Source of the DNA: Daphnia pulex
Lineage: Eukaryota > Arthropoda > Branchiopoda > Diplostraca > Daphniidae
Length of the DNA stretch: 64,000 nt
Assembly (NCBI RefSeq): GCF_021134715.1
Contig: NC_060022.1
Location: 997,001 to 1,061,000 of the forward strand
Reading direction: 5' to 3'
Part shown: positions 14,851-52,615 of the stretch, in pieces
Position numbering within the stretch: position 1 is the first letter of the stretch
Layout of the letters: each line of letters begins with the position of its first letter
Translations under genes and position numbers: made by a program
The notes under the pieces: generated by a model
Seen by the model: the letters and a program-made list of their open reading frames with translations, nothing else
Database searches by the model: none
What the model was told of the DNA's origin: nothing

Positions 14851-14895
14851 CAGGTAAATACAGGGGTATGTCCGTATGTGTGTGACAAGACTACA

Positions 14896-27174: not shown

Positions 27175-30100
27175 ATGAATTCAAATGACGAAGCAGCGGT
27201 AAGAGGAACAAAATCTTCATCAACTGGTACAAGTCGAACAAGGATGCCGTACTCAAAGACGTTAGCTCTGATCCTCCTGGTGTCTAGCTTCTGGCAGATG
27301 GCCCACTCGGCCCCAACACCTCAACAAAAAGATGGTACAGTATTTAAACTTCAAAAGACTTATAGACCATCTTTTACATTTCAAAATGTAGGAAGGAAAT
27401 CAAATGTTTATTGTACTACTGGCCGTCAGCCAACAAAATGGAAATTCTTTATCGAAAAAAAAAAAAAAATATTCCTGAAGCTAAAGTGCTGCGAGGAATT
27501 AACCGCCAAATTGCCTACATCGCTCAAAGTCATTTACCGTTAAATTTCAGCAATGAGCGCCACCAACAGCCGCCAGCGCATTTATCGAAGCTTGTAAGAA
27601 ACGGAATGAATAAAAGACAAAAGATCTTCTTTCGTCACGCTATAGTGTTATTTTGGAGAAACATGCCGGTTGCTTTAGTATACCCGAACTAAAGCGTCTC
27701 GTATTTTAGAATGAAATATTTTGGTGTTGGTAGTTCTTACATTTTTACTTTGTTTTTTAATTAGCAGCTGCTGGACAGAGCGACGACGACGATTCGGTAT
27801 TAGGTGCTGAAAGTTCGATGGAGGCCGGAAGAGATTACGACGACGCAACAACTGAATTAAGGTACGGAGGAATGTGGGAAGAACCCGTGGAGCCGCCCGA
27901 TATCCGTAACCCAAACGGCCCCCAATCATCACCTGAAATTGATCCCGCTCTCTCCTCACACCAAGAAAACGCACAGCATGCCACCACCTCGATCAACACC
28001 AATCCTTCACTCCCATCGATGGTGATGGCGCAACGAATCCTGGAACAGGAAGACCAGCCCGATTGGGTATTCAACATCGTCATCCAGAAGGAGAAAGCTT
28101 TAAAGTCGGCCTTTATCGCGCCGGACGTCAACTGGCTAAGAGATTTGGTGCCCAAAGTGGTCGACGTTGCCGACAAACCTGACACGTTGATCAAGGAAAC
28201 CATATTCAACGCCATAGACAAGCAGGACGTCGTCGTCAAAGCCGATCACATCGAAGACAGTCAAATCTTCATCAACGTCGTCAAGTCACAGGTCGGCTCG
28301 CAGGACGAAGTGCCTGAAATCCTCGCCCGTCTTCGAAATCTGATGCAAACTGGCGGCCCAGCTGTCGATTCGCTGTTCCAAAGGCAAAACAACGGCAGTG
28401 AGCCATCGAGAAATCGAGCCGTCGTCATCAACGTGTTAATTGTCAACGTGTTAAACGTTAATATCCTCAACGTGATCCTGCCACATAGTAAAGCCGTTAT
28501 TCCCATTGTTGACGAAAAGACTGCAACAACCGACTCTGTTGTCGAAGAAGATTCCTACATCGTTGCTCTGAAAGAATCTCAAAAGAATCGGAATAAAGCA
28601 GCCGCTCCAAGAGACGTCGATCCTCATCACGAGAAAAAACTTGAACATGTTCCGCATTCAATTGCCGGCAGCCCTGCGGCCCAGCAACAAGTCAACGGAC
28701 GTTACTTGACTGAAGAAGAACATTCGTATGAACCTTCTTCGACGGCTAGACCTTTGATGGCCATGGAAAAAGACTATTTGAGAAGTCACGACATCCAGCC
28801 AACACTGCAACAGCTGGTGGATGATAAAAAGCCATTGAAAGAAAAATCTCCCCAGATCGATCCTAATGCTAGCCTCGAATTCGTTAATTTGCCAAGTGGA
28901 CCGTATTTTACCAGTTCAGTTGAAAAACCCTTAGAGCTCGAGGTCCTTATTGTAGAAAAGAGCAACAAAAGTCAAACTCCTGGAGTCAAAATCCCTGGAG
29001 TAAAAATCGAGAAAGTAAAAGTCCCCGAAATTAAAGTCCCTGGAGTAAAAGCCGCGGAAGTAAAAGTCCCTGGAGTAAAACTTCCGGAAGTAAAAGTCCC
29101 AGCAGCGTCTCCAAAACCGAACAACAATCCGAGTAAAGTGCAAAAGGTAGGAATGGTGAGTTCTATGACAAACAGGGCCACCAATGTCATCAGAAATCAA
29201 ATCAGAACGATTGGCTTCTTCGGCATTCCACTGTTGGCCGGTCTGGCCGGCACAGCGAACGCTTGGCTGCCGGCCATGAGTGCGCTCGGGCGTCGCAGAA
29301 AGAAGAGATCCACCCTGGGATACGAGGAATACGATGAATGGCAGCCCAACCGTAAAGTGGTTAATATTGATGACCGCAGACGGGCTATAGAAGACGCCCA
29401 AGTGCTAGCCCTATTGATGGGCAAGCGTTACATGAACGTCAGCAAAGAATCGCTGCAAGATTCCATAGACAACTGGAAGAATCGCGATCAGGAAGCCAAC
29501 GCTGCCGTTGCGCTTCATACAACCGAAGCCAACAAATTGGCCAGCACCAACAAACCGCTTTGGTTTCAATTCAACCGGCCCGGAAGCGCTCAAAGCAGGG
29601 AGACTACAACCTCAACTACCACCACAGCGCCATCTACCATCAAAAGAGCAAACTACAATGAAGATGAGAACTACGAGACCAACACAAATCAGTACTACAG
29701 TAAACCTTCGCCCTTGTTTTATTCGGCAGCCGGCTCGACAGGAGACTCCATGGAACACAGAGAAATTGTCGACTACGACGAAGCCGAGACTGCTGGACCT
29801 TCGACCTACTCGACGGGCAACGCGCTAACGGAATCCGGCGACTACGAAATGGAAGACAATAATAAACCAGTGACGCAATCAGAAGAAAATACGGCGACAA
29901 CTCATTCAGAATCGGTGACGCCGCACATTCACATCATTCCGTCAACTTCGCCGTCCGGCTATGATTTCGATATTGTAGCCAATTTCGTCCAAGCCATGAT
30001 GATGAACAGCAACAGCAAAATGAAAGAAAATCCCGTCGTCGATGGACCGGAGAATAGGGAAGACGTAGACGGTGGCCCGGAGAATAGAGAAGACATGATG

Positions 30101-32341
30101 GACGGTGGCCCGGAGCACAGGGAAGATGTGGACGGGCCGGAGCACAGGGAAGAGTATTATTTAGTCAAATCACCCTCAATCGTCAACAGCTCGTATCCGG
30201 GTGGACTTCGAGTCCCAACTACTGGTACGACTGTTAGTCTCTTCGCGGCCGATCCCATCATGCCCAACTGGGGTGTTAAAAGCGAGAACGTCACCAACAG
30301 TCCAGTCACTTACGTTTCGCTCAAAGCGCCACCTAACGTTATGACTAGACCGTTCAAGACGACGACCAGTACGCAGCCAGCCTCATCGTCTGCGGATTAC
30401 GACGACACTGATCTCATTGACGCTAGCGACTTACCCGACACCTACGATAATATCGGAGCGCCTCTTCAGTTTCACGAAGATGAAACGGGCATTACTTTTT
30501 TCGTCTCCAAAGAGGTTCCTGGGAAAACCACCACTCCTATTTCGTCGACTGCCGGATTGACGGAAAAATACGCGACCACCAACAAGCCCTTACCGCATTG
30601 GTTCAGCGACCCGTTCGAGGATGGACTTTTTGTCGGATCGAGTACTGCCAGCACGTCCAGACCTTCAGTTCCGCCAACTTCAAGCGTCTCAACTACAACT
30701 TCAAACACTCCACTTCCCAGCACTCAGTCTGGAACTAAACCAACTGTCCCGGCAACACGACCATCCGGTCTCAGACCCAACGTGCAATTCGGAAACCGAC
30801 CATCGTCTCCACTTCCAAACTTTCAGCCTGCAAACCAACCAGTGTTACAACCGTCCAATAGTAAACCCAATTCTCAACCTGGAAATCGGCCGTCAGCACC
30901 TTTTTTCAACACACAGTCCAATTTCCAGGCTGGAACTCGACCGCCTGCACCGGTAACCCCTCCTTTGCAGTTTAATCGGCCGCCTAAACCGATATCAACT
31001 CCACCAAAAGTTCAGTCCAGTCGACCATCTTCATTGCTGACTATGGCCAGCTTTGCGGCGCCCAATCGGCTGAAACCGACGGTTCCCCCACCTGTCGATG
31101 TCTCGTCCATCGGAGGATCTCAGAACGTCAAAGTCACCGTGACGAATCCGCCGACGTTGGATTTGAGCACATTAAGTGGAGACTCGTCGCTGGTGTCAGC
31201 CACTGTCGACAAGCACAACGTCTTGTCCAGCATAATCAAAGGAGCTGCAAGCAGCCCGTTACCGTCCAACGATCAATCAACTACCGGACCTAGTTTGGTG
31301 GATAGCAGTAGCGAGATGAACAACGCGTTTGGAATGTACAGCAGCGCTGCATCGCCCAGCACCAACCGCCCGATTACAACAACGACCAGCGTTGAAGAAG
31401 TGGTGGGCTCGACAGTGGATAATTTGGCGACCCAATTGGAGATGAATCGCACTAGCTATGTATCGACCAAACGGCCGATTGGAGGACTTCATTTTATCAA
31501 CACGTCAACGGACGTTGTCATCCTCAGTCAATTCGATGTCACGCCCAGTTCAATATTTTCTACGCCTGATGAAGAGTCCATGGAAGCTGAAGAAGACTAC
31601 TCCATCGAACCCTCTGACTCAATAGTCGTCGATGCAGCCGAAGGGAATCAACCGGACTCGGTGCCGGTCGTTTCTAATTTGGCAAACCTTTTCATCGCAT
31701 CGTCCGGGAGCAGCGACTCCAGCTCTTCTTCTTCTTCCGGCTCATCTTCATCCGGTGATGTTAGCAGCGGAGGTGTCACCACTTCAACAACTGCAGCGTC
31801 ATTCGACCCCTTCGCCATGTTCTACACTCTCGGCTTGGCTTCGGCCGGCATTTTCGCCCTGACTTTGCCCATTTGGGTTCCGATTGTAGTCGCCAAGAAG
31901 CGGAGACGTACGGGCAGTTACGGGCCAACGAAAAACAAGGTGGATAAGAAAAAGAAGAAGAAATATCCGGCCAAGAAAAAGAAGAATTATGCCTCAATTA
32001 AAGGGACATACGGAGAACCTCCACCGAATCATTACAAAGACCTCGACGAGGATTTAAATTACAACGATGAAGATTATTACCCTGCCGGTCCGGTGAATAA
32101 ACATCATCAGTATCAAAGCACCACCATTGACGATTTGTATCGAGGCAACAGCCACGACGATTACCAAGACACGGACGCTGAACGCTATTCTCCTTTATTC
32201 CGTGATCTGTTCTCGTCCAACTCGGACGACGTGCTCAGCGATCCTGGGCCGCTCAGTTCCGAAGACATTTACGGACCTTCTTCGCCAGCGACATATTACG
32301 ACGATCGGAAAGCAGCGCGGCGTCGACTCCCCAGCAAATAG
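27175..32341 (+). CDS. Mucin-like type I membrane precursor, first cluster member
   Basis: Two coding exons: 27175-27334 (phase 1, donor G|GTACAG) and 27768-32341 (acceptor TTAGCAG). The model gives about 1577 residues; starting at the second Met (27244) gives 1554. Residues 24-45 form a signal peptide (MPYSKTLALILLVSSFWQM). About 140-305 is a non-repetitive, probably folded region. About 458-498 has AHNAK-like PGVK/PEVK repeats. About 535-561 is hydrophobic and ends in the furin-like RRRKKR (562-567). Thr/Pro/Ser-rich mucin-like sequence follows, with short GPENRED repeats near 810-840. A Ser-rich run then precedes a membrane helix at about 1404-1428, followed by a Lys-rich and then acidic Tyr-rich tail. 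AATAAA lies at 32694. I do not recognise a named ortholog. A secreted or cell-surface matrix precursor cleaved by furin is inferred from layout. Confidence 0.85.
28979..29103 (+). repeat. AHNAK-like KVPxVK repeats within the first mucin-like gene
   Basis: Units of about 5-7 codons read PGVKIPGVKIEKVKVPEIK and then PGVKAAEVKVPGVKLPEVKVP. The pattern of alternating hydrophobic, basic and Pro residues resembles the AHNAK/desmoyokin repeat. Here it sits in a predicted secreted protein just before the hydrophobic-furin module. Confidence 0.8.
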
Positions 32342-32807
32342 TTCAAGCAACCACCAACTTCATTCAATTCCGAATTTCAATCACACCTTTGCCTGTAAAC
32401 CAGACGTCACCTTTTTTTTTTAAAGAAAGAGTTTGCCGGCCCTTTTAACCCAATAACATATCTTTAAAAGCACAAACCCTCGTTAAAAAAAAACTGTTGT
32501 GCCTATATCTTTATTGGAAATTCTCATTTATTTATTACTTGTAAATTATTAACCGTTAATCTCATTCACTTATACTCGAAATCATCCCACTTCATTCGTG
32601 ATATTTGTTCAGCATTTAGATTAACTACTACATTTTTTGGAGGCGATCGACTGCTATGAAATGTTGATGCATGTGTTATCATTTCCATTACCAAAATAAA
32701 CCCCATCATATTTCGAATTCATTTGATTTTTCATTCCAAAATTTTCCAACCCCATTTTTGGCGCAATAATATTTGAATGCTAATAATTTTTTTTCTCGAA
32801 TTATTAG
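32342..32807. other. 3' untranslated region and spacer
   Basis: The first mucin-like gene ends here. An AATAAA hexamer lies at about 32694-32699. The T-rich tract and ATTATTAG at 32794-32807 form an acceptor for the coding block that follows. Confidence 0.55.
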
Positions 32808-33822
32808 TGACACCAATCTCCTGTCCGATGTCGGAGCGACAGAAAAAGAATCCAATAGCTTGGAGGAAATTTCGATAACCCAACAATTGACCAATCTCTC
32901 ACTTATTCAATCAACTACTCCTTCCTTGCCTTCACCTCTCCCACAGGTTTTGACGGCCTCCTCCCCTTCCGTCACCTACACCCTGCTGAATCGCAACAAG
33001 CCGCCGATGCTGTTCTCTCCGGTATTGGCGTCGTCGCCATCGCTATCGACGCCTAGCAATTTATTATTACGTCAGCGCCCAGTGGCAGTTCCGGCAGCTG
33101 TCAATATCATCCGGACGTCTTCCACAACAACGACAACACCTCGACCGCCCAGACCCATCGCCAACAATAACACCGCTGTCATAACTAATAGCAACTCGTT
33201 GCCAAAACCGCCCAGCACCAATAACGGACTGAAATCGCCCAGCAACGTAACATGGGTAGCCACTACCACCGCACCGATATCACGACCAACAGTCAGTACT
33301 ACCACCACCACTTTTGATTATAATTATGATTATTACGAGGATGAAGAGACAACAGTATCACCAGTAAGAAATACCACCCAAACTACTAATGCAACTAACC
33401 CAGGGAAATCAGGATCGTCGACTCTTAGTAGTAGTACGTCTACTCCTAGTAGTAGTACTACTGCTGCTACTATTCCAACTTTGCTGAGCACAACGAAGCT
33501 GATTTTGGCAACAGAGGCTATCCAACGTCAAGTTACAACCACCACTACCACCACGACAACAACAACAACAACTCCGAGACCGAACCCGGTTTACATTCCG
33601 CCGCCGCAGAATGTTGGAATTTTGAACGGACTCACACGGGCCGGTGGAGCTGGCCTGAGTATTGGAGTCGCTTCGGCCGCCTATGCTGTAATCGCCCTTT
33701 TCGGGATTCCTTTCTTAGGAAGAAGGAAAAAGAGATCAACAAGCTTTCAAGATCGTTTAGTCGTTACATCCGAGTATGATTCCGATTACCCTCACCCATG
33801 GTTGACTACTGAAGATTATTGA
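32808..33822 (+). CDS. Orphan 3' coding block with hydrophobic-furin module
   Basis: An open frame preceded by a good acceptor (T-rich tract, ATTATTAG|TGAC at 32807/32808). It has no ATG of its own, so it must receive an upstream exon in phase 2. About 338 residues. The first part is Ser/Thr/Pro-rich with Thr runs and a YNYDYYEDEE segment. Near the end is a hydrophobic stretch (GLSIGVASAAYAVIALFGIP) followed by LGRRKKRSTSF and a short acidic tail ending TTEDY. This module closely resembles the internal one of the preceding gene. It could be an alternative terminal exon of that gene or the last exon of a separate gene with an unseen start. The phase-0 donors I noticed in the big exon, and the phase-1 exon ends at 18157 and 27334, do not fit. 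Confidence 0.65.
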
Positions 33823-36800
33823 ATTCATTGAAAAAGATCAATACGATTCGACAATCTCTCATTAAAAATTACTGTTATTGGATTTGTTTTAAAAGAAGTA
33901 AATGCATATATTGAAATTCTTCTTGTTATACTCATTGCGAAATTAAAGTAGTGAAAATTCTGAAAAATTATAATTTAAGCAAAACAACAGAAAAACTCGA
34001 TTTCAAGAGGCCTATTCCCAGACAATTGTGATGAAAAAAACGTTGGAGGCTTGGTAAAAAAAAAATTTCAAGCTGCACTTTGCTTGAAGTGTTTAAGTTA
34101 AACTGTGTTTCAATTTGATTGTTTACCCACAGACAAAATTGTGAGGTATACAATACTGGGCCTGTTCTGCAGTCGTTAGGTTATTAAACACCCTTACTGA
34201 GTAAAAACAAAACCGGCAAATTCCCAGTCAAGAGCCTAGCTGTGGAATAAATATACTATGTCGCGATTTTCAATTAACGGAAAAAAGAAGAATAGAGAAA
34301 CATTTGTCCTACCTTTCAGCCTGGGAAATACAGCCAGGCATCCGTTCAAGTGCTCATCCATACGTAGAAAAGTTGAATCCAGTACCAGGCAGGATAGGAA
34401 AAAGGGGGGTCCTCGTGAATACCCCCTCACTCGCATGGGTGTACACGTTACAGAAAGGGGAAGAAGTCGAGTCGACCGACATCAGTAGTTTCTCCAAACA
34501 AACGGGAATAAGCTGCTGTTTATCTAAATAAAAAATATAAATGGATTACGAAAAATATTTATAGAAACAACAACTCAACAAGTAAGGAAAAACTAAAAAT
34601 GAAACAGTGGGTAAATCCAAATTCTTAGTAAATGGGGAGAATTTAAGGTTCCATGTAATAGTAATACACTGAATGTATTCAAATCATGAATCATTCAAAT
34701 ATCTGGCAGGACGTAGGAATAAAAGTATCACAAATCATTATCCTAGTAGTGCTGATACTGAGATTGTTGATGACAATATCAGGACAAGTAAAACTTGCAT
34801 AATTATCTTTTTAAAATGGCTGGCTCAGCCCCAAGTCTACTACATTTGTGATTAGTGCAAACAGACTGAAACTGCCATGAATCAACAAGGGACTTGCATG
34901 ATAAAATGTGGTCAGAAATTTAAAAAAAAACACGTTTAATTCTTCTATTCAAGTCCCGATTATCATTCCATTTTTATTCTTAGTTATTTTTACCTGCCAA
35001 ACAGCATAGATTGGAGAGAATGAACAGCAGCGACACCAGATTTCACACGAGGTCCACATTTTTGTAATTTTATCAAACAGAGAGCAGACGACACTAATAT
35101 TCAAATTAGTCAGCCATGTTTGTTTAAGATATCGATAGAGGGAATATGATCAATCAATAGATTAGTATTAGTCATTGAATAAAATTTGTTTAAGTTTAAG
35201 AATCAATTTAACTCTAAGTAGCGAAAATTTTCTCTGCCTCCAACTATTTACAGCTATATTTATTTGTTGTTTTATTGATTCTCGTAAAAACGAAAACAAG
35301 TAAATAAAAACACTGTTTTGTGACCAATAAATTGACGAGACGGTGAGAGAAAACGGTCTATCTGGCTGCTACGTAGCTGATTATATTTATAGTCTACATT
35401 CTTATTCCACGCCCCGATGATCTTACCTACCGCGTCACTCGTCACTTATGGCCAATAATAACTATGCGGAGCGTGGAAATATTAACCCTTGGAACATTCA
35501 AAGAAATGATTACCTCAAATTATTATTCTGCGAATTCAGAAACTCACTTTACTGTTACATAACGTACTACACAAAACAGGACTTTTACCTTTGTCCTCGT
35601 GAGATATTTGCAAATTACTGCGCCACCTGCACGATATTTTTTTTTACATATTTATAGATATAAAAACGAGAGGAAAATATTCTTTCGGCGTGAGTGAAGC
35701 TAATTTAATCGTGATTCACGTTAGAGTCATCAAGAACACGAGAAAGAGGAGATGCAAGATCTGAAATCAGCGGGAGCAACAGCAGGTATTAATATAGCGC
35801 ACCGGTAATTTGGGCAACACCACAGCTTCGGATGGTCACGGACGATTGATCTCAGTGATCAAGAGGAAAAAGAAACATCTATATATCAACAGTTTATTGG
35901 ATAAAGTCCGCTTATCCTATACATCCCGCTGAATATGTACTGTACAGTGTGCACATTTATGCATATCCTTCTCCTGGTTTATCAAGTCTACACATATACA
36001 ACCCGTCTCCGGCATATTACCGTCAAATAACAACAGGTGGTTCACTGTTAGAATCAAACACATCTCTTAGCTGTGTATTGTAGTCCGGAAATGAATCCTT
36101 TTTTTTTATCCATTAACCCGTTATTATTATTAAACTATACACACAAGAAATCACGAGCGGGAAAGAGCATAGCAGCAGCCATATACACACACACACACAT
36201 GTCTAGCGGTTTTGATTGCTTTCTCTCTCACTGGCTATATTATACATGCTGGTTATATGGATTCTAGCATATTATCGCCACAGCCGCCACTATCCCCACA
36301 ACATTAATTCGCGCATCGTCGCCGGTATTTCATCGACTAAGAAGTAAGAAAAAAAAAACCCAAGCGCGTGAATTCAGGCGTGTCTTTTACCATATCACGG
36401 GGACAAACCGTTCGTTTTGTTGGGAGCTGCTGTGGGGCTTGTACATATCCTCTTATCGCTAATAATATTACCGAGAAAGAGCGGTGGGGTGCGCGCGCGC
36501 AGTCACCGAGCGTGGCAGTTGTCGCCGCGTCATTGAAACATTGAGAAAATGAACGGATGCGGCTCTCTCTCACCCTCTTATTCTGTGAGAGATTTTCTTG
36601 TAACTTTCAGTTTTTTTTTTTTCAATGTTGGTCCCATCGTCCGTTAGGTTCTTATGTATACCTGGGCAGGTGAATTCAGGCGCGTGGCGTTCCCTAACCG
36701 CGTCGACGACACAATCTTAATTCATTTTTGTCTTTCTTCTTTTGTATCTTCCTTCTTTGTTTTTTTTTGGTTTTTGTTGTTTCCCCCTTTCGCTGCTGTT

Positions 36801-37124: not shown

Positions 37125-40100
37125 ATGATGCTGGCACGGCCATTCGTTGTGTTTCTGACGATGGTCGCCATCGTTTTCTTGTGCGCGATTTTAGATCCGA
37201 CATCCGCGGCGGCTTTGGCAAAGATCGCATCGCTAAATGACAAGCCCATCAGCCCAGCAGCTAAAGAGAAAATGAATAACCCGAGTAGTACAAAGGCACC
37301 CGCAACTTGGGCGACACGTCCTAATAACGCCACGACTACTCGTCATTACTTGCCGACGCTCAATTTGTTTTTAAGCGACGGCTCGTCGTCGGAATCGCGG
37401 GATTTTTCGACTCGGCGGACGTCCTTCCGTCCGACCGGCTCACCGGCATCCAGCAAGTCGCCACTCAAAGGCTTCAACTTGATCATGGACGAAATATCTT
37501 CCCAAATCTTGTCCAACACGAGGCCGCCGGCGACTAGGACGACCGAGCCATTGAAAGGCGACGCTTATTACGAAAACAAAGAACGCACCACAAATCTAGC
37601 CGATCCAACGCGAGATGGCGTCCAAATGACCAAAGGTCCATTTTTCACCAGCAATCCCAAAATCGAGCACCATCACTTTCAGAACGTCGATCACCTGCCG
37701 GAGAACACGCCTCCAATCAAAGATTTGCCAATTCCGACGACGATCCGCCCAAATGGCCCGACGTTGAATTTGGTGTTGGACGGGCCAACAACAACAACAA
37801 CAACAACCACCACCACTCGAAGGCCACCTCTTCGGCCGATCGATTCCCTATTGATGCAATACCAACAACGAGAGGACGACCAGCAATCAAACAAAAAGAA
37901 GAGACCGCAAGATAATCTGCTGGAATGGCTGGTGATGATGCAACAGCCAATAACGGGACCAGTTGAGCCGGTCAAGAGTTTCCCCATTGAAGAAGTGAAG
38001 AAATCCGTTCAGCCGGTAAAGCCTTTATCGGTTGAAACGATACTAACGCCGCCAGTCCAGCCCGTCAAGAGCGTTCCTCTTCACGAACTAATGCCACCGG
38101 TTATTGAAAATTTGCATCAGGAGAAATCGAATCAACCGAGCGAGGAATATGAATACGAAGAAGAATATGAGCTAACTGGATCGGGCGAAAGAATGAGTCT
38201 GGGACAGCCGCAAGTGCCCGTCAATCTGCCCAACAGACTTAGTAACGAGGTGGAACAGTCCAGCAACGATTGGAAACGTCCTCATTTAACGCCAGGGAAA
38301 ATGGACCAAGAGGATTTCATTGGACCTATTGTGACACATCTCTTCAAGCCCAACCCATTTTCTTCGTCATCTTTGAACAAGAAATCAGGAACCGCTCCAC
38401 CGGCGACGACTTCGTTCGGAACTAAGCGGCCCATCAGCAGCAGGCCGACTATCACGGTTGGTATGAGAGATTGGCCCGTCCAGGTAGGACTGCAAAAACC
38501 TTCTCCACCTGTACAAGTTGGGCTGAAAGAGTGGCCCGTTCAAGGGCTTCAGTCACGGCCCAAACCGACCAAACCGACTGTCAAGCCGGGCGAATATCAA
38601 ATGGGCAACGTTCACGTGAATTCCGTGACAACTCCGGGCGGTCAACTGCCAAAAAGGAAACCGATCATGGGGAACGAATTTCAAATGAACAGCGGGACCG
38701 ACACTATCATGGAACGTTTCAATTTCACCCCAGTCGCTACTCGACGGCCATTCGTCAGTTCTCCGGCTCCTGCTCGCCTTCCTCCCAGTCCTTACAAAAA
38801 TCAACTAATCAATCCGCCATCAGCTCCGTTATTACTCACCGTGTCGGACAACGACAATCAGAGAGAAAGAAACGACAATAATCAAAGGAAAACGGCCAAT
38901 TCCTATCAAACTCAATCTCGAGCTCCATCATACGGCCAGTCGTCGTATTACATGAATAACAATTCTCCGTACGAGCAAATCAACATGTACGCACAGCAAA
39001 AACCGCCGGCAATCGACATGAGCAGCTATTACGGGTACCCAAGTAGCAACAGTGGTGGTTATCCGAGTAGCGGTGGAGGCTATCCGAGTAGTGGTGGAGG
39101 CTATAAACCTATGAAGCCGGTGATTGATCCAGAAGATTATAATTACCAGAGCGGCGAAACAGACCAGGATCTCGACTACGATTATCCTACAAATGAAGAA
39201 GTCAAACCGCCACCAAATCCGTTTATTCCCGGACTAGGATTATTTGGTAATGAGGCGAATATCATATTAATCCCCAAACCCATCACCAGTAGCACCGCCA
39301 GGCCGCCGTTTTTCAGTTCTAGTAGTACGACGTTACGACCGAGCGGCCAATTTAGTACGAGCGAGCCTATTACGAATGAAGTAACGACGTCTCGTCCGTT
39401 TAGTCCGGGGCAACAAATGGGAATCATTGAAGTTGTCACTCCTGGGCCCTTGTGGCCTCCATTCGCTAGTAGTAGCACTACAACTCCTTCGATTCCACAA
39501 TTCAGCACTAATAAACCCACTTTCAGGCCTACGAGACCTACGAGGCCAACTAAACGACCCACTAGACCAAGGCCAACCATAACATCCACAACACAGACAC
39601 CAATAACAACAGGTACGAGTACACAAATGGGAATCATTGGAGGTGTCACTCCTGGTCCACTGTGGCCACCATTCGGCAGTAGTAGCACTACAACTCCTTC
39701 GACTCCAGTCGAACAGTTTAGCAGCAACAGACCAACTTTGAGGCCTACGAGACCTACGAGACCTACAAGACCCACTAAACGTCCCACTAGACCAAGGCCA
39801 ATGAGCCCAACGACAACACCAACGACAACAACACCATCAACAACCACACCCACAACGACACCCACAACGACAACACCAACGACACCAACGACAACACCAA
39901 CAACGACACCAACAACTACAACTACTACTACGGAAGGGCCCTTCGACCCGACCGATGACTACTATGATGAGGTAACAGATTTCAGTACCGGGAATCCAAC
40001 AACTCAACAGGAAATGGTGAATATTCCCGGACTCGTTCCCAATCCTATCGGCATCACTAACATGAGCAATATAATTGTGGTACCGAAGCCAACAACAGTA

Positions 40101-42974
40101 GCGCCAACTATTGAGACGACGACGACGGTTCTCATTCCACAGATGATGAATTCGAATATGGACACGACAAATAGGCCGCTGGATGGAATCATCGACATTA
40201 CACTGGGCATCACGACACCACCCAGCATCACAACAACGGCGCTACCGACAGAGTCGCCGATCACATCAGTTATTATTCCGATCACACAAGCACCTAGCGC
40301 GGGGTCCACTACAATTACTCCTACAACGCAACCGACAGTTACTGACGCCACTTTAGATCCGTCCGATTACATCTTTGTGGATCCATTCCCGGATTTCGGG
40401 ATCGATTACCCGGAAGAAATGGCCGTAGATATTCCCGGAGTCATGATGCAGATTCCGATTGGAATCAGCAATGGGACAAACGTCATTTTGATCCCGAAAC
40501 CAAATATTACATCAACCACATCCACCACATCCACCACATCGACTACACCGAGTCCTTTCCAGCCACTCGATAATTCCACCAATAACGAAATGGACATGTT
40601 CATGAATGCAGTCGGAATGCTGGAAGAGCAACTGGACATTGGTTTGCAGAATGTCGATTTCATGGAGAATTTTAACTTTGTTGGCACGCGCCCAACCATC
40701 CGTCCATCCAGTAGTACTACGCCTAGTTCAAATTTTCCAACCGTCCGTCCATCCAGTAGTACTACGCCTAGTTCAAATTTTCCAACCGTCCGTCCTTCCA
40801 GCAGTACGACTAGTTCAAATTTTCCAACCGTTCGTCCTTCCAGTACTACATCAACTAGTCCAAACTTTCCATCCAATCCAACAGCAGGCTTTCCAAGCGC
40901 TATGCATATGGATCCAAATCACCAACAGTCGACGACCCCCATTCCATTCCGTCCGCCAAGCTCGTTCGTAACATCCGGACCGTTGAATAATAACATGTTC
41001 CCTAATAGACCTCCTCTGCGACCTATTAGACCTACAGCTGGGCCCATAGTATATCCCAGTAATCAATTCGTTGATCCCAGTAATCAATTCGTTAATCCCA
41101 GTAACCAATTCGTTAATCCCAGTAATCAATTCGTTAATCCCAGTAACCAATTCGTTAATCCCAGTAATCAATTCGTTTATCCTAGTAATCAATTCGTTTA
41201 TCCCAGTAATCAATTCGTTTATCCCAGTAATCAATTCGGATATCCCAGCCAACCTGTTTATTATCCAGAAGAATTTACAAAGCCCAAACCTGATTACGGG
41301 TCAATTAAACCCAGTTACGGCGCTCCGCCTCTCCGACCAACGTACGGAGTCCCTCCCCCGTCGTATTACGGCAGCGTTCCGCCAGTGGGTCCAACCTGGC
41401 CGACAAAACCGACCGACGGAATGTTCCAGCAGGGGACATCGACTATGGGACCGTCGATTGGAATCTTCCAGCCTCCAATCCAAGATCCGATAGGCATCAG
41501 CAATCCAGGAAACGTCGTCAAACCTTCGGGTGGCCGGCCACCGTTTTTCGTGTCAAGCAGCAGCACTACAACTGCGCCGGTGAGTTTCCAGCCAATCAAT
41601 TTGGCCCAGCCCACACAGCAGCCGAGCGGCATCTTTGAGAGTCAAATGGGCAACTTTAACGGAAGTTCAGTTCCAAGTGGTGGAGGCGGTGATCCATTTG
41701 TGGTCGTTCAACCGCCGTTCGTCAGTCCGTTTTTCCCCGATCAGTTCATCACAAACAGACCTGCAACAACTCCTTCAACCACGACAACAACGACAACACC
41801 GACGACAACAACAACTCCGACGACAACGACAACACCGACGACAACTACAACTCCGACGACAACAACAACACCCACTACAACGACAGTCAGAACAACAACA
41901 ACGACAGCAACTGAACGGCCGATAACAATTAAACCCCCGACAACAAGTGACACAACATCTTCAACAACAACAGCAGTTTCGACTTTGCTTCCTACCAGCA
42001 CCGAAGCCCCCTTCGACTTGTTCCAGCAACAAATCAAACCCATTATCCCGTCCCAAATGGGAAACGGTTTCATCCCGCATCGTCCCCCATTTAACCAGTC
42101 GACACCTTCCACTGCTTTTAACCTAACAGCATTCCTCGATTCTTTCGCGACCTACTACGGAATCCCTTCGTTCTTATTCCCCGGCTATTACCAAATGGGC
42201 AACTTTTATCAGCTCTCAACCACCACCACCACCACCACGACGGTGGCGTCGACGGGCGATGCGATTGCGGGCGTCGTTGCGTCATCAACCGCTTCCCCTT
42301 CGTCAACCGACAATCAGCCGTGCAACCAGTTGTCAGCGGCAGAACTGACAACACCAAGCTCTTACACCGGTCCACCACCAACGACCACCAACGAGTTTGA
42401 TGACATTTTGGTGACAGATTCGCCATCAATCCAACCATCTAATAAACCGTCTAATAATAAACCAACGCCTCCAATAGGGCTTCCACTGCCACCCAACCCA
42501 ATATCTACCATCTTCTTCCCTAGTGTGTCTTCCGGTTCATCATCATCATCTTCTTCTTCTTCATCCGACGGATCCGTTTCCTCGGGTGGAATCACTGGTG
42601 GCAGTGTGACTTCATCCGGCAGCACAATCAGCGTCACGGGCTTCTTGTTGTTCTTTTTCTTTATCGCTTTGCCCATCATCTTTGGCTGTTTGACTCTTTT
42701 GGAAATCCCGTTCATCGTCAGCGGTGTCTTGGTGCTGGCCGTCGTTCCGCTGACCCTCATCCTTTTCCTCAAAGTCTCGGGCGCCTTCCACGGACGGAAG
42801 CACCGGAACTGGAACATCGACTGGAAGCGCATCCTGTCGGAACCCGACGACGAAATGCGGCGGCTCGAACAAGACGTCTGGGCCCTGCTGGACAGTTTTC
42901 CTTATCGGGAGATGGAAGTGACAACAACGGAGGTTACCTGGAATCATCTCGACGATGATTATTACAGCCGTTAA
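37125..42974 (+). CDS. Giant Thr/Pro-rich mucin-like membrane protein, second cluster member
   Basis: One uninterrupted exon of 1949 codons. The start is supported by an in-frame TGA at 37092-37094 and a signal peptide (LARPFVVFLTMVAIVFLCAI) in the first 30 residues. The body is low-complexity Thr/Pro/Ser sequence typical of O-glycosylated mucins. It contains a 70-residue tandem duplication (about 764-905), three copies of an IPG-x-NIILIPKP motif (from 701, 967 and 1103), VRPSSST repeats (about 1190-1245), nine PSNQFV units (about 1310-1372) and a pure PTTTT region (about 1545-1605). A Ser-rich stretch (about 1803-1830) precedes two adjacent hydrophobic segments (about 1838-1887) and a conserved-looking acidic tail ending DDDYYSR. 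A KKKR site lies near residue 256. AATAAA is at about 43491. No named family is recognised. A surface mucin or matrix protein is inferred. Confidence 0.85.
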   Translation: MMLARPFVVFLTMVAIVFLCAILDPTSAAALAKIASLNDKPISPAAKEKMNNPSSTKAPATWATRPNNATTTRHYLPTLNLFLSDGSSSESRDFSTRRTSFRPTGSPASSKSPLKGFNLIMDEISSQILSNTRPPATRTTEPLKGDAYYENKERTTNLADPTRDGVQMTKGPFFTSNPKIEHHHFQNVDHLPENTPPIKDLPIPTTIRPNGPTLNLVLDGPTTTTTTTTTTRRPPLRPIDSLLMQYQQREDDQQSNKKKRPQDNLLEWLVMMQQPITGPVEPVKSFPIEEVKKSVQPVKPLSVETILTPPVQPVKSVPLHELMPPVIENLHQEKSNQPSEEYEYEEEYELTGSGERMSLGQPQVPVNLPNRLSNEVEQSSNDWKRPHLTPGKMDQEDFIGPIVTHLFKPNPFSSSSLNKKSGTAPPATTSFGTKRPISSRPTITVGMRDWPVQVGLQKPSPPVQVGLKEWPVQGLQSRPKPTKPTVKPGEYQMGNVHVNSVTTPGGQLPKRKPIMGNEFQMNSGTDTIMERFNFTPVATRRPFVSSPAPARLPPSPYKNQLINPPSAPLLLTVSDNDNQRERNDNNQRKTANSYQTQSRAPSYGQSSYYMNNNSPYEQINMYAQQKPPAIDMSSYYGYPSSNSGGYPSSGGGYPSSGGGYKPMKPVIDPEDYNYQSGETDQDLDYDYPTNEEVKPPPNPFIPGLGLFGNEANIILIPKPITSSTARPPFFSSSSTTLRPSGQFSTSEPITNEVTTSRPFSPGQQMGIIEVVTPGPLWPPFASSSTTTPSIPQFSTNKPTFRPTRPTRPTKRPTRPRPTITSTTQTPITTGTSTQMGIIGGVTPGPLWPPFGSSSTTTPSTPVEQFSSNRPTLRPTRPTRPTRPTKRPTRPRPMSPTTTPTTTTPSTTTPTTTPTTTTPTTPTTTPTTTPTTTTTTTEGPFDPTDDYYDEVTDFSTGNPTTQQEMVNIPGLVPNPIGITNMSNIIVVPKPTTVAPTIETTTTVLIPQMMNSNMDTTNRPLDGIIDITLGITTPPSITTTALPTESPITSVIIPITQAPSAGSTTITPTTQPTVTDATLDPSDYIFVDPFPDFGIDYPEEMAVDIPGVMMQIPIGISNGTNVILIPKPNITSTTSTTSTTSTTPSPFQPLDNSTNNEMDMFMNAVGMLEEQLDIGLQNVDFMENFNFVGTRPTIRPSSSTTPSSNFPTVRPSSSTTPSSNFPTVRPSSSTTSSNFPTVRPSSTTSTSPNFPSNPTAGFPSAMHMDPNHQQSTTPIPFRPPSSFVTSGPLNNNMFPNRPPLRPIRPTAGPIVYPSNQFVDPSNQFVNPSNQFVNPSNQFVNPSNQFVNPSNQFVYPSNQFVYPSNQFVYPSNQFGYPSQPVYYPEEFTKPKPDYGSIKPSYGAPPLRPTYGVPPPSYYGSVPPVGPTWPTKPTDGMFQQGTSTMGPSIGIFQPPIQDPIGISNPGNVVKPSGGRPPFFVSSSSTTTAPVSFQPINLAQPTQQPSGIFESQMGNFNGSSVPSGGGGDPFVVVQPPFVSPFFPDQFITNRPATTPSTTTTTTTPTTTTTPTTTTTPTTTTTPTTTTTPTTTTVRTTTTTATERPITIKPPTTSDTTSSTTTAVSTLLPTSTEAPFDLFQQQIKPIIPSQMGNGFIPHRPPFNQSTPSTAFNLTAFLDSFATYYGIPSFLFPGYYQMGNFYQLSTTTTTTTTVASTGDAIAGVVASSTASPSSTDNQPCNQLSAAELTTPSSYTGPPPTTTNEFDDILVTDSPSIQPSNKPSNNKPTPPIGLPLPPNPISTIFFPSVSSGSSSSSSSSSSDGSVSSGGITGGSVTSSGSTISVTGFLLFFFFIALPIIFGCLTLLEIPFIVSGVLVLAVVPLTLILFLKVSGAFHGRKHRNWNIDWKRILSEPDDEMRRLEQDVWALLDSFPYREMEVTTTEVTWNHLDDDYYSR
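39414..39833 (+). repeat. 210-base tandem duplication inside the second mucin-like gene
   Basis: QMGIIEVVTPGPLWPPF begins at 39414 and QMGIIGGVTPGPLWPPF at 39624, exactly 210 bases apart. Each is followed by SSSTTTPS and a run of RPTRPT units ending RPTRPRP. This is an in-frame duplication of 70 residues, with the RPT run differing in length between copies. Confidence 0.9.
40690..40865 (+). repeat. VRPSSST repeats inside the second mucin-like gene
   Basis: Four units read FPTVRPSSSTTPSSN or shortened variants, in frame, each about 36-48 bases long. Neighbouring units are nearly identical, so the expansion is recent. Confidence 0.85.
41052..41240 (+). repeat. 21-base minisatellite encoding PSNQFV units
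   Basis: Nine in-frame units of 21 bases (core CCCAGTAATCAATTCGTT) encode YPSNQFV, DPSNQFV or NPSNQFV. The first residue of each unit varies between Y, D and N while the rest is constant. Confidence 0.95.
41764..41910 (+). repeat. ACN-triplet run encoding PTTTT repeats
   Basis: An almost pure run of Thr codons (ACA, ACG, ACT) punctuated by CCG/CCC. It gives regular TPTTTT units, a dense potential O-glycosylation region. Similar shorter runs occur at 39800-39930 here and at 33535-33570 in the preceding coding block. Confidence 0.85.
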
Positions 42975-45900: not shown

Positions 45901-46121
45901 AAAAATTCCGCAGAGGAGTCGCCTACGACAACACTATCAGTGGAACATGGAAAAACGACCAAAAGGAAATAATAAGACAACTGATACACACGGTCCCTCC
46001 CTCAGCTTTTGTACTCTGTGCTGGACGTATTAAAAAAACACGCATGTGGTTTCCCCGAAGGAAAACGGCCGGATGGGATAGGGTCAAACACCGACCGGAA
46101 TGGTGTCGTCGTCGTCTTCAG

Positions 46122-46148
46122 CATTATTATTATTATTATTATTATCCC
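46122..46148. repeat. ATT trinucleotide microsatellite
   Basis: About nine near-perfect ATT units, about 1.4 kb upstream of the third mucin-like gene. Confidence 0.85.
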
Positions 46149-46952
46149 GAGCTTGGGGAATGTGTGAATTAGGCCGTCGTATTAGAATGCTGACCAAAAA
46201 ACTGACCGCGCGCCATTTCCGATCACTTGGCTGCACGAGCTTCACCACCACCCAACAAGTTATTTGGCCGCGCTAGCTGTGCTGGCCGAGCTTTTTTGAG
46301 TCGCAAAGTTAACAACTCGACTTTGAGCTCAAATGCTCAACGAGGTCTTTTGTCTCTCATAGCCACACGCGTTTTCTTTTTTATTTATATATTAACAAAT
46401 ATAACTAAAAAAAAAAAACCCTTTTCTTTCGTAACTTTTTCCCGCGGGTCCTCCGAGAGCCGAGTTCCTCTCTCGTGTACAGTGGAATTATTATTTATTT
46501 TTTTCCGCTCGCGGGAATTATTATTTGCCGATACTAAAAAGAACTGCGACTCTAAGCGTGCGGTGGTAAAACGAGGAAAAACGATAAAAGAAGAAGAATA
46601 TTAACGACCTGAGCTCTTGGACTCTCTCGCGGGCATGTATATCGAGTTGTTGGGCTAATGCTATAGTTATATGCGCTATACGGCTTATTTAACTATAGAC
46701 TATATGGAATACGGAGAAATAGCCATATAATAGTATCTATCTCGTTCGGGACGGGGTTTAGCTGCTTGAGGTCCTTTACGCTAGTGGATATGATATAGCC
46801 AGCACAGAGACGCATCGCGGGCGCAAAGTCTCGGCAGAGTCGTCACAGTGCGCTTTCCCGTCACGGTCCACTATTTTTTTGGCTGCTTCTCTTAACTATA
46901 TTTCTCCCGTCATCCCGCCGAGCGCGGCGCGTTTAAATGTCCATACAGATCT

Positions 46953-46972
46953 AGAGAGAGAGAGAGAGAGAG
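46953..46972. repeat. GA dinucleotide run upstream of the third mucin-like gene
   Basis: About ten GA units in the probable promoter or 5' untranslated region. GA runs at arthropod promoters can bind GAGA-type factors, but that role here is inference. Confidence 0.7.
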
Positions 46973-47528
46973 CAACAACAGAAACTAGCCGTCAGTTTAT
47001 TCCTCAGAGAAGCGGAGCAATAGGCAAATAACAGCGGGGAGTCTGCGCACAAGTGCATTTTTTTCTGTGTGTGGAGAGCTTGAGGGCCGTCCAGTCCTAG
47101 TGAGCGCCGCCCGCCACCATCGCCGCCGCTGCTGCGTTCAAGAAATTGTTTTTTAATATTATTTCGTGACTGTGTGAAAGAGAGATCGAGAAATCGAGAT
47201 CACAAAAGCAGAGAAAGCTGGATAGACCCCTCGGTAGAAGTAGAGGGCAGACTTCAGTCACGATGGATCTGCACTGGTGAGAAGACACTCGAACGTCTCC
47301 TGGCCGTCCACCTCCAGAAAAGCCCTTGTAGCTTGTCTAACTGTCTAACTGTACACCCCCCAACCGCCGCTACTAGTGATAATCGTGAAAAAAACATTCG
47401 TAACTGTTTTCGCTTGGTTTTTTGTTGTACGTTGTTTTTGTTGTTGTTGTTGTTATCATTTCCATCCACCCCATTTTACTTAATCCACACCTGTCGGGAG
47501 TTTAATCTAACCACACTCTTAAGCAACC

Positions 47529-50500
47529 ATGAAAGACAAGAGATTGATGCTCGTGTTCTTCTTCTTGGCCGTCGTCGCTGGCCGCTTCGTCTCGGCTAAT
47601 ACCGAATCCGCACTGGTGGAGAATTCCACCGACGACGACTACCATGTCGTCCTGGTCGAAGACGAAAATTCAACCGAAGGACGGGAGGATCCAGGAGACG
47701 AAACGCTGGAAGATCCGATGACGGTCATCGACAACGACAAGTTTCTGAGGCGATTGATTCGAGTCCAGACCTTCTCCCGGCCCATTCGCACCAAAACCCG
47801 CCCGGTTTGGTACAACGGCCAGTCGCCGGTCTCTTTCAAATCTTCGACGACGACCCAATCGCCGTCGACCAAAAAGGCGACGCCGATTAGTCTGGAGACG
47901 ACGCCGGAAAAGATGATGGACGTCACCACAGTCCCGCCGACCATCGAAACGGAAGATGTCGTCAAGACGGACGTGACGACTCCGGTTGGCGAAACGACCA
48001 GCGACGGCGAGAGGACTACGTCGCAGGAAGAAAGGTGGTTGCTGGACACACTGGAAGAAGTGGCCCAAACCGTCCAGGATTCCGATTTGCCGTCCATCGA
48101 CGCCATTGAGCAAATGCTGGAGACGGAAGCGCCCAAGGTTCACGATGACAACCGGAATAGTCTCTCGTCATTCCCGACCAACGCGGCCGAGATTGTCGTT
48201 CACGACAGCAGCGTTTCCAGCACGCCGAGTCCGGCCAGCATCTCGTCGGCCCCCGTTTGGATCTACCGTCCGACCTCGTCGGCAGCAGTGAGCAACGAAG
48301 CGGCCCAGCAGCCCAGCAACGCGGTCAAGCGCGGAGGAACGCCGTCCAACAGCAACGGATTGAGCCGATGGGGCGTAACGGTGAAGCCCGGCACCATCTC
48401 GACGACGGTGCGCAGTTTCAAAATGCCCAACGGCTTAGTCACGGCATCGAAACCCACGGCCGACATTGAACGACTGACGACCACCGCCCATCACAAAGTG
48501 GCCAGGTCGACGCTGGCCAGCCAAATGCTAGGTAAAACGTCCATTCCTTCCACTCAACAAACCACTGAATGGTGGATCACTAAACCCAATTATCAATTTG
48601 ACAACCTGGACGATGAAGCTGAGGCCGATTACGTCAGCAGCGACGGCAGCAGCAGCAACCAGGCAACGGCGACGTCGGCCGAATCCCCCGATGCTGCTGG
48701 ACTAGCGCCACCCAAATCTCCTCCGCATTTCAACATTTTTTACGACGACGGCCAGGAAGCTCCGACCGGTTTAAAGAATCGACCGGCCAGTTTTTACCAA
48801 TCGACACCTCGACTTCCGCTTTCGGCTAACCCGCTGATTATCAAAGGGCCTCTGGTCACCCGGCCGTCCACTGCTAGGCCCAAAACGACGGAGAAATCAG
48901 CGACCACAACTCGACGGCCATCAACGACGAAAAGAGCTGCAACCACAACTACGACCACCACCACAACAACGCCGAAACCCAGGACGTCACGGCCGAAAAC
49001 AACCACGACAACAACAACGACCAGAAAACCTAAAACCAATCCCAGCACCACCACCGCTTCCACTCGAAAACCACCGGCCACCATTCCCATTAAACAAACC
49101 AACAAAAGGCCGGACAGTGTCCAATTTGTCCGCGTCCCACTGCCCAACCTTCGCCCACCTTTTCCAGTCGATTCGGGAGTGACGGACGAACCTGGAAATT
49201 TCCAGGAATTTGTTCGCACTACAACCGAATTCCCGGACTCTGATGCCACAGACGACTTGGAAATTGATCTGGGAGGCACCGAAATTCGCCCGGTATTCCC
49301 GGCAGAATTTGAAGCAGCCGAAGAATTGTTCGCTAATGGCGAATTCACCGACAGCCCCGATAGTTCATCCAACTCGTCGACCGACAGCACCGGAAGCGGC
49401 GGCGGAACGAGCGGCACTGGCAGCAACGGATTGATTGACGAACAGCAAATTCCCATCAATTTCGTCGTTGTCAATATCTGGAATTATGTCGGAGGTCAAT
49501 TGACTTTGGTTGGCCAGCAAGTGGTACCCGCTCAAGTCCTGGCCGGCATCAACATCACCAACGGAGCCACCATCCAGTCATCCAGTTTGCCCGAGACGAT
49601 TTTGAATCAGCTGACCAGTCTCCTGGGATCTACGACGTTAAGTACAACATCGACCACGACAACAACAACAACTCCTAAACCCACTTTGCCACCACGTCCT
49701 TACGGCGGAGTAGGTAATCCAGCGCTAGTCGGAGTCGGCCCTTCGGTTGTCAAAGGGCAAGACTACGGGAAACCTTCCCAGACGTACGGCCCACCCAAAG
49801 CTCCTTCAACATCTTACGGCCCACCCAAAGCTCCTTCGACATCTTACGGGCCACCTAAAGCTCCATCTACTTCTTATGGGCCTCCTCCAGCTTCTTCTTA
49901 TGGACCTCCACCAGCTGATTCATATGGCCCACCGCCAGCTTCTTCCTACGGACCTCCACCAGTTGACTCGTATGGCCCACCGCCAGCATCTTCTTATGGT
50001 CCACCTCCTACATCTTACGGTCCACCTCCTACATCTTACGGACCCCCACCGCCTACATCCTATGGGCCTCCACCACAGCCAGCTATATCCCTTCCTGCTC
50101 CTCAGTATTATGCGCCGACTACGTCAGTCCCGTCTTATGCAGTTTCCGACTCTTACGGATTACCGACTCCGACACCTTTAGACTTGGAAGCCATCCAGTA
50201 TCCTTCCACGTCATACGGCCCTCCGCCAACCACACAGGCCCCGACTTATGTCGCTCCCAGCATTTCACTTCCAACATCCTACCTGCCTCCTAAAGCTCCT
50301 TCCACTTCATATGGACCCCCTCCCAAAGCTCCTTCCACTTCTTACGGGCCTCCTCCCAAGGCTCCTTCCACATCCTACGGCCAGCCGATCCAATCGTACG
50401 GCCCTCCACCCACACCGAAGCCCATCGATTTAGAGTCTTACGCTGAGAAACATCACCACCACCACCACGATTACAATCAATCTCCGAATGCATCCAACAT

Positions 50501-52615
50501 GGACTACCATCCGGATCACCGCACGACGACGACGACAACCACGACGACGCCAGCCCCACCGTCCGTTTCCGCTCATCACGCCGTTCACCATCACAACCAC
50601 AACCACAACAGCAACAACAAATTTTCGTCCTTTTCCCAGTTGCAGGTGAAAGCGCCACTGAGTCCTCCGAGCCCACCTGAAATCAATCACAACTTGGTCG
50701 TCAAAGGAGTGGTTAACGCCAATCAAATCAACACCAACACCAATAAAAACGTCGCCAAAGGTCCCGCTCGAAGGCCGTCCAATAAGAAGAGGCCGCAAAA
50801 TGGCGGGGTCAAGTCTGTCAGCACGACTCTGCGGACTCCGCAAGGCAATTTGAACTTTGTCGACATCAACAACGGGCAAAGCCCAGGGCCGTTCGTCAAG
50901 GGAGGCAACCCGTTGGGAGCTCTTTTGCCCGATTTCATTCTAGAGAGTCTCGGACATCCGATGTCGTTCTTGCCGCACGAATTCTCTCAGAGATCCGGAC
51001 AATTCGATCCGCGTTTCGACGATGCTCCATCACAACGTAAGTTTAACTACTTTTCCTGTTTGATAACTTTCCCCCTCAGTGGTTTTCCCACTTGAACTAG
51101 AATACTAGTACACGTCGTATTGGCGTTTTTCGGAAATTATATGGTGGCCAGTCAATAATTTATCGATTATTACTATTTTCTTCCTACGTATAGCGGTCCA
51201 AAAGTTGCACCAGTCCAATTCCCGCACTAACGTCGCATCAAGCCGCACCGGAGATGACGGAGAGTCGACTGGCGACCGCAATAGAGCAGCTCATCCGGCT
51301 CCTACCACTCAAGGTTAGACCAGTCCCATATATTTGAGTCTTACGCGCTATTGATTCAATAACAACCTAAAAAAAATGAAAAAAGAAATAACGATCATAA
51401 GGAAAAAAAGGAAGACACAGAAAAATAAGCGGGAAAAGAAAAGAAAAAGAAAACTTTCATGATAAATATCTTTGTACACATTTACTGTATAATCGCCTTG
51501 CAGGTACCAGAAGCGATAACAAGAGTCCCGTTAGCGACAGCGTCATCATCAACAGCCCGGCCAACAAACAACCCAAACATCCGCTCGACCCGCGACCATC
51601 GTTTACTCGACCATCACCGTCTGCCATGGGTATATAAGGATAATTTCATTTCACCCGTGTATGGGAAACATATTGGATAAATGTAGAGCGAAAAACCCTC
51701 CGCCAGCAGGCAGTCACGAATTATTCAATTATTTAGATCACTGAGCTGTGTCAAATTATTTACAGTTAGCTAACTACATTTGCACCTCCACAATCAAAAG
51801 TCGTTGATTGGACAATCACAGAAATATTTAAGTCGCTATAGAAAAATATAAAACCGGTTGTTGTGTTTAGGTTTAATTCTACGGACTGGAAAAATGTTCT
51901 AGTATTTTTAAAAGTTGATTATAACAACATTCATCTTGGAACTATGTAACAGAAATCGCTTTCGGTGATGCTGTCGGGAAGAGGTTAACTCCAGTCGCTT
52001 ACTATCCGTCTCTTGGACATCCGTTAGAAGTGGCCCATGGCAATCAACAAAGTACGTTTGACGTTTTACCAAATCGAAAAATGATGAATGAGCGTTTTTT
52101 CATTGCTATTTTTATTTCTTTATTTGATTCATTTCATTTAAAATTTAGGATCTGACGATGGCTCGGAGGTAGTTGACTTATCGTCGACTTCAACGACTAC
52201 GGCAACGACACCCAAATCGGACCGCGGACGATTCCACATGCAGGGAGTCAAGTTCAACCTCCCGGCGGCCGCGATTTCTGCCGCCGCCTTTTCCCTGCCC
52301 ATTCTGGTCGGACGCAAGAAGCGTGAGGCCAGAAGAGGTCCTTATTGGCAGTTGAAGGAGAAGCAAGAAGAAGTTGAACACAATCACGAAGCGGAGGAAG
52401 CATTTGTCAGACACTTCACGGCGGAAAACGAGCGAGAGATGCGCCAAAAGAACATTGCTTCGTACAATTGCCGACAGCTATCGGTGAACGACGAAAGTGC
52501 CGAGGAAGTTGGCCGCAGCAGTGCCGTCACCACTCTCCACCATCTGCTCGTCTGCCCGGGTCGCCAATCCCGAACGCTCAACATGATTTTGCTGGACGGC
52601 TTAGCCGTCCGCTGA
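47529..52615 (+). CDS. Secreted Thr/Pro- and YGPP-rich matrix-like precursor, third cluster member
   Basis: Five exons, all joined in phase 1: 47529-51036, 51194-51313, 51504-51629, 51953-52051 and 52149-52615. Together they encode 1439 residues. A signal peptide ([18 protein letters not shown]) opens the protein. Thr/Pro-rich sequence follows, then a non-repetitive island at about 633-696 ([20 protein letters not shown]). Two blocks of SYGPPP and [10 protein letters not shown] repeats lie at about 750-855 and 891-961, then a His-rich run. The last exon has a hydrophobic stretch ([20 protein letters not shown]) ending in the furin-like RKKR at about 1340-1343, then a charged C-terminal peptide with two Cys. 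YGPP repeats are common in arthropod cuticle and matrix proteins. The hydrophobic-furin module links it to the neighbouring genes. AATAAA is near 53119. No named ortholog is recognised. Confidence 0.9.
49776..50090 (+). repeat. YGPP repeat block in the third mucin-like gene
   Basis: About a dozen in-frame units of [10 protein letters not shown] type giving way to [16 protein letters not shown] and SYGPPPT. A second shorter block follows at about 50200-50410. Tyr in such repeats can be oxidatively cross-linked in cuticle and matrix proteins; that use here is inference. Confidence 0.9.

Follow-up and report, generated by a model that had tools for sequence, protein, structure and literature searches.

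A paralogous family of predicted type I membrane proteins in Daphnia pulex and a hydrophobic-plus-furin module that not all of its members keep

A window of 64,000 nucleotides on the forward strand of the Daphnia pulex genome (contig NC_060022.1, here C6; C6:997001-1061000) holds gene A1, an exon near position 33 kb (the 33-kb exon), gene B and gene C, and in three of these, A1, the 33-kb exon and C, a hydrophobic stretch is directly followed by a furin-type basic site. Is this a module that holds together a gene family by processing rather than by sequence, as an earlier note based on the letters of this DNA had proposed? The three modules and the Ser-rich runs with SSGG of A1 and B lie where that note had placed them (Table 1). 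The observation is correct in its letters; the unifying reading finds no support, and in its place stands a plainer family whose members have a membrane end in common. All comparisons were made within one D. pulex genome (133.19 Mb, 13 contigs), in which the genome search scores the best candidates only, so that a "self-match only" holds at that sensitivity, and the splice sites of A1 and gene C are our own assignments.

Gene A1 encodes a 1578-residue precursor from two exons on the plus strand. Searched at the protein level with its module region, the genome yielded relatives at C6:203622 (55%, E 2.6e-26) and C6:210215 (39%, E 4.2e-9) and nothing beyond these two up to E 10; a DNA search recovered the first of them. 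The three alignable paralogs of A1 lie on the same contig, 0.8 Mb distant, where a tandem array (50 kb examined) comprises A2 (an open reading frame (ORF) of 1468 amino acids), A3 (an ORF of 841 residues that has a start of its own) and A4 (a signal-peptide exon and a 396-residue ORF). These proteins had been described as otherwise unalignable; A1 and A2 can in fact be aligned over most of the length of A1, with 588 identities in 1251 aligned columns. A search initiated with the C-terminus of A2 returned five places in the genome, viz., A2 itself, A1 (63%, E 1.9e-24), A3 (55%), A4 (55%) and B (44%, E 4.3e-6). All four A proteins have in common the SNLAN motif, the Ser-run, SSGG, a helix with the pattern GIF.L.LP.W.P.V, a basic cluster (net +5 to +7 within 12 residues, after the C-terminal helix) and a PGP[LM].S..[IL]YG tail. 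When identities between A1 and A2 are counted in 40-residue blocks (mean 15.1), the best-kept blocks are one within the N-terminal VNWLRDLVPKVVD region and one within the tail, with 27 identities each, followed by the module with 25 (one of four such blocks), the Ser-run with 23 and the helix with 22. A 106-residue query from the N-terminal region (28061-28378) matches A2 (69%, E 5.8e-38) and no other place in the genome up to E 10.

A1 (GRRRKKRS) and A2 (GRRRRRRS) have the module in strong form and A3 has it in an altered one (GRKERS); A4 lacks it, along with the N-terminal half in which it lies. The A3 site is R-X-X-R only, lacks the P2 base and follows a stretch with charges inside it, which scores -0.07 on the GES hydrophobicity scale versus 1.61 in A1 and 1.64 in A2. 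A six-frame pattern scan beside the paralogs (C6 195000-202119, 206526-209500, 211951-216300 and 217562-222000) found no module-bearing exon, a weak negative given that the strict pattern misses A1's own module. The module is probably useful in A1 and A2, as it is well kept between them; across the four members it is not constant, though, and even between A1 and A2 it is not the peak of conservation. The interpretation in the earlier note is supported in part: the proposed gene family does exist, but the bond between its members is ordinary homology (A1-A4, and the Ser-SSGG-membrane part common to B), not processing.

Gene B is likely related to family A through this Ser-SSGG-membrane end, and we do not count it as a member of the A1-A4 set because only the Ser-run, SSGGITGG and a hydrophobic segment are present in it. 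With B from SSGG onward shuffled plainly, scores as good as the real ones against A1, A2, A3 and A4 arose in 6, 0, 3 and 0 of 1000 trials; with its segments shuffled separately the counts were 0, 0, 15 and 0, and with only the linker shuffled 3, 3, 48 and 1. A match to gene B on contig C9 was rejected as a GAA microsatellite.

The 33-kb frame had been counted among separate coding units. Its ORF (32770-33822) has no signal peptide, no start near the 5' end and a first Met far inside the frame, and its codon scores from 32809 on exceed 95% of 500 noncoding segments (0.27 for 32809-32946; 95% mark 0.01, maximum 0.34), with a codon table trained on A, B and C, whose Thr/Pro bias the exon shares, and a noncoding set of stop-free segments that may contain unrecognised exons. 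Since start and signal peptide are missing and the codon score is coding-like, the ORF most likely represents a 3' exon that splicing joins on at about 32808. This exon begins 467 bases past the A1 stop and appears not to be a gene of its own; it may serve gene A as an alternative last exon. An acceptor at 32808 requires a phase-2 donor, and the only phase-2 donor above 3 in A1 exon 2 is 27862 (4.3); the join 27861-32808 gives an open product of 423 amino acids. Poly(A) signals lie 3' of both ends, at 32695 and from 33861 onward. It is conceivable, though rather unlikely, that gene A swaps membrane ends by alternative last exons. A single signal-peptide exon would then serve both the long protein of 1578 residues, receptor-like, cut by furin and Tyr-tailed, and a mucin of 423 residues that ends in a hydrophobic-GRRKKRS segment of its own. 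That the exon instead belongs to a separate gene with unrecognised first exons is possible, if on the unlikely side: the splice sites are weak, the phase-0 donors 29147 and 29156 (4.6 and 6.0) outscore 27862, and several other joins are open (A1 exon 1 to 32837, 33083 or 33098; 29147, 29156 or 30233 to 32947), while the coding-like codon use from 32809, the short distance to the A1 stop and the open frames given by donors of A exons 1 and 2 speak against it. Donor scores do not settle the choice, because our five assigned donors (A1 and C) themselves range from -1.2 to 4.5. A search of solved structures with the end of the 33-kb exon gave a best E of 0.91.

Are the A1 and A2 modules cleavage sites? 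Given the signal peptide at the start and the KKRRR and Lys-rich run behind the helix, the simplest topology would keep all that precedes the helix outside; if the first hydrophobic stretch of A1 were a helix too, the KKRRR after the second one would come to lie outside. A1 has 8 sequons and A2 has 11, of which four share the same column (exon-2 positions 809, 843, 1229 and 1247 of A1), and all four lie between the A1 site (509) and the helix (1350). As conserved sequons lie between site and helix, the A1/A2 site is probably luminal and cutting by furin is plausible. A study of furin substrates uses the motif R-X-R/K/X-R and filters sites to the ectodomain, not the membrane or cytoplasmic tail (PMC3545927). 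By this motif A1, A2, the 33-kb exon and C all have R-X-[KR]-R at the module; the strict matches of A3 are found past the helix and at the C-terminus, and the A4 frame has none. The mean Kyte-Doolittle hydropathy over a 19-residue window (KD19) is 1.41 and 1.45 for the A1 and A2 stretches, 1.72 for that of gene C and 2.08 for that of the 33-kb exon, compared with 2.09-2.27 for the helices of A1-A3 and 2.79 for that of A4; both scales (Kyte-Doolittle and GES), the 19-residue threshold of 1.6 and the donor matrix belong to general background knowledge. The exon stretch, the most hydrophobic part of the frame, ends 34 residues short of the stop codon and most likely forms a membrane helix backed by stop-transfer charges, which would place its GRRKKRS in the cytosol. 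The stretch of gene C is of intermediate hydrophobicity, and both cysteines of C (2 in total) are in the tail after it.

An account in which nothing is cut and each of the three hydrophobic stretches, also that of A1, is a membrane helix backed by stop-transfer charges is a good deal less probable. Such a view draws on the basic clusters after the C-terminal helix in four of four members and on the KD19 of the exon and C stretches above 1.6. Against it speak the lower hydrophobicity of the A1/A2 stretch, the basic residues that flank it on either side (+3/+6 and +4/+4), and the conserved sequons and second helix that follow it.

A strict R-X-[KR]-R occurs once each in A1 (1578 residues), the exon (337) and C (1439), always at the module, and not at all in B. 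Composition shuffles yield a hydrophobic stretch with such a site in 18 (A1), 7 (exon) and 9 (C) of 2000 trials, so the arrangement is not compositional chance; it would be expected of a membrane helix bearing stop-transfer charges as well as of a luminal cleavage site preceded by a hydrophobic stretch. Plain shuffles score as well as the real pair in 2 of 1000 trials for A1 with the exon, 2 for A2 with the exon, 0 for the exon with C and 91 for A1 with C. The picture changes when hydrophobic and basic segments are fixed in place, with the order inside shuffled and the basic run untouched. Depending on the side shuffled, scores as good then arise in 750 and 441 of 2000 trials for A1 with the exon, 184 and 150 for the exon with C, and 1376 and 1296 for A1 with C, and in 1027 for A2 with the exon; the score of A2 with A1 is never reached (0/2000). 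None of the similarities among the three modules is significant by this test, the exon with C coming nearest; their homology was rejected on this ground, and the specific repeated module of the earlier note thereby loses its similarities among A1, the exon and C. The exon and C modules gave self-matches only in genome searches, as did the last 133 residues and the middle region of gene C. A stop-transfer cluster can mimic a furin site, as the cytosolic TRMKRRR of A3, which fits R-X-K-R, illustrates. A hydrophobic-then-basic scan run over the window hits the exon, C, the C-terminal helix of A1 and one 84-residue chance ORF; it does not hit A1's module. The hydrophobic-basic ends of the exon and C thus show no sequence kinship to the A1/A2 module. 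A single processing module in A, the exon and C, whose cutting by furin would give the released fragment a hydrophobic C-terminus for anchoring or assembly, is therefore very unlikely, even though the strict sites of all three sit directly after a hydrophobic stretch, plain shuffles seldom match A1-exon or exon-C and the module is well kept in A1-A2, given the segment-keeping results, its absence in A4 and alteration in A3, and the lack of further genome matches for the exon and C modules.

We favour, with fair confidence, a type I family A with a common membrane end, of which A1 and A2 would probably be cut and to which the exon and C modules would not be kin. In this explanation gene A and its paralogs would encode a signal peptide, a long, nearly Cys-free outside part, a Ser-run/SSGG stalk, one membrane helix, stop-transfer charges in a basic cluster and a cytosolic tail in which Tyr motifs are conserved; the product of gene B would have a mucin-like body, and its Ser-SSGG-membrane end would be related to that of family A. 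A cut at the furin-type site of A1 and A2 would release about 0.5k residues from the N-terminus and leave about 1k attached to the membrane. Several points weigh against this account. Conservation in A1-A4 is judged from paralogs of one genome. The module, at 25 of 40 identities between A1 and A2, is surpassed by only two blocks, the loss of hydrophobicity in A3 is small by Kyte-Doolittle with a shifted window (1.31 versus 1.41 in A1 and 1.45 in A2), and the conserved sequons number four and come with no null test. For B, shuffling only its membrane part gives scores as good in 34, 47, 314 and 186 of 1000 trials against A1, A2, A3 and A4, so that its kinship rests mostly on the SSGGITGG linker and the Ser-run; the reverse genome search from B found A4 (9.9e-5) and A2 (2.0e-4), reached A1 only at 0.02, level with a chance microsatellite match (0.02), and did not recover A3.

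Vertebrate transmembrane mucins and dystroglycan are glycosylated, cleaved, two-chain membrane proteins with a cytosolic tail, and vertebrate-type transmembrane mucins have a SEA or EGF domain near the membrane. The Daphnia proteins differ from these in that no SEA, EGF or any other Pfam domain scored above the cut-off in the five stretches scanned. Ser and Thr make up 25.8% of B, 22.9% of C, 32.0% of the 33-kb exon and 17.3-20.2% of family A. The label "mucin-like" applied to the whole cluster suits B, C and the exon; neither A1 nor any of the A2-A4 frames contains 100 consecutive residues that reach 40% Ser+Thr and 5% Pro. A survey of Drosophila mucins takes a 25% Ser+Thr share as definition, which B reaches and family A does not (PMC2515642). 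B, C and the exon resemble the surveyed mucins in their stretches rich in Pro, Thr and Ser (PTS-rich), and B and C also in having tandem repeats at the DNA level. The logic of a hydrophobic segment plus a furin site also occurs in cuticle proteins: in the furrow collagens DPY-7 and DPY-8 of the nematode Caenorhabditis elegans, R-X-X-R directly follows a hydrophobic helix and cutting is needed for secretion (PMC13225626). These collagens differ in being type II proteins with an N-terminal helix whose released part is C-terminal to the site, whereas here a signal peptide comes first and the mucin-like part lies before the site. The acidic, Tyr-rich tail that the earlier note named as a shared trait is present in A1 (15 Tyr in 148 residues) and the exon (3 in 34), weak in B (3 in 65) and missing in C (2 in 101).

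Table 1. Features of genes A1, B and C and of the 33-kb exon (positions in the window)
Feature	Position	Strand	Remarks
A1 exon 1	27175..27334	+	start and signal peptide; phase-1 end after QQKD; ends resemble A2 (SSAPTPQHNDG) and A4 (SSASLPQQNDG)
A1 exon 2	27765..32341	+	remainder of precursor; paralogs A2, A3, A4
A1 N-terminal conserved region	28061..28477	+	VNWLRDLVPKVVD... and Asn-spaced hydrophobic strand at 28418-28477
A1 hydrophobic stretch and furin-type site GRRRKKR/S	29216..29311	+	retained in A2, weakened in A3, missing from A4
A1 Ser-run and SSGG juxtamembrane linker	31703..31774	+	common to A2-A4; gene B less surely
A1 predicted membrane helix and KKRRR stop-transfer cluster	31814..31915	+	KD19 2.09; GIF.L.LP.W.P.V invariant in A1-A4
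A1 predicted cytoplasmic tail motifs STTIDDLYR and SDPGPLSSEDIYGP	32117..32278	+	PGP[LM].S..[IL]YG in 4/4 members; TTI[DE]D in A1, A2, A4
Polyadenylation signal AATAAA	32695..32700	+	3' of A1 stop
33-kb 3' exon	32808..33822	+	337 codons, Thr/Pro-rich
33-kb exon hydrophobic stretch and GRRKKRS	33640..33738	+	stretch 33640-33717, GRRKKRS 33718-33738; short tail follows
Gene B	37125..42974	+	single exon, 1949 aa, signal peptide, PTS-rich
Gene B Ser-run and SSGGITGG	42528..42602	+
Gene B hydrophobic segment	42642..42776	+
Gene C	47529..52615	+	five exons (47529-51036, 51194-51313, 51504-51629, 51953-52051, 52149-52615); unbroken frame, 1439 aa
Gene C hydrophobic stretch and GRKKRE	52253..52327	+	stretch 52253-52309, GRKKRE 52310-52327

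Further features of these proteins may be noted. The top KD19 window of A1 (2.17) is the Asn-spaced strand AVVINVLIVNVLNVNILNVI (28418-28477), not the module, and its counterpart in A2 scores 1.81. No Cys is present in A1 (1578 residues), A2 (1468) or A3 (829), and there is one in the A4 frame (396). The tails of all four A proteins finish with PGP, the Tyr-Gly motif and an Arg-rich end (32237-32341 in A1). A structure-database search with the N-terminal stretch of A1 reached a best E of 0.3 among solved structures. Gene B has a 21-bp tandem repeat at 41052-41248 (9.4 copies, 93% matches) encoding PSNQFV-type units, and its single NCBIfam match (18.8 bits, cut-off 413) is far below threshold; Pfam gave for C a sub-threshold Mucin-like match only (E 0.0087, 16.8 bits, cut-off 28.7). 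Rfam at gathering thresholds and a tRNA scan were of no help.

Elsewhere in the window, the minus strand carries a DUF4604 protein (4994-5338), an M1 peptidase N-terminal domain (14437-14907), aldehyde dehydrogenase exons (55495-57016; Pfam Aldedh in two of the exons tested), which we take to be probably methylmalonate-semialdehyde dehydrogenase, and a HECT ubiquitin-ligase exon (63614-63901). On the plus strand an ORF with an F-box (58034-58414) is perhaps the start of an FBXO21-like gene. Among the literature on Daphnia mucins and furin, Daphnia transmembrane mucin gene families, and arthropod or Drosophila transmembrane mucin cleavage, none of the titles found concerned family A, the wider literature being covered in part, and words beginning with mucin or furin are absent from the main text of an article on Daphnia gene families (PMC12102780).

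The products of these genes would probably form part of an epithelial surface coat, and the tail of the A proteins may have a signalling role. If the 33-kb exon were an alternative last exon of gene A, one locus would supply both a cleavable coat protein and a short anchored one. For the family as a whole, a hydrophobic stretch followed by RRKKR is a poor marker: in a single set of paralogs two members retain it, one has it altered and one lacks it, though all four have the membrane end.

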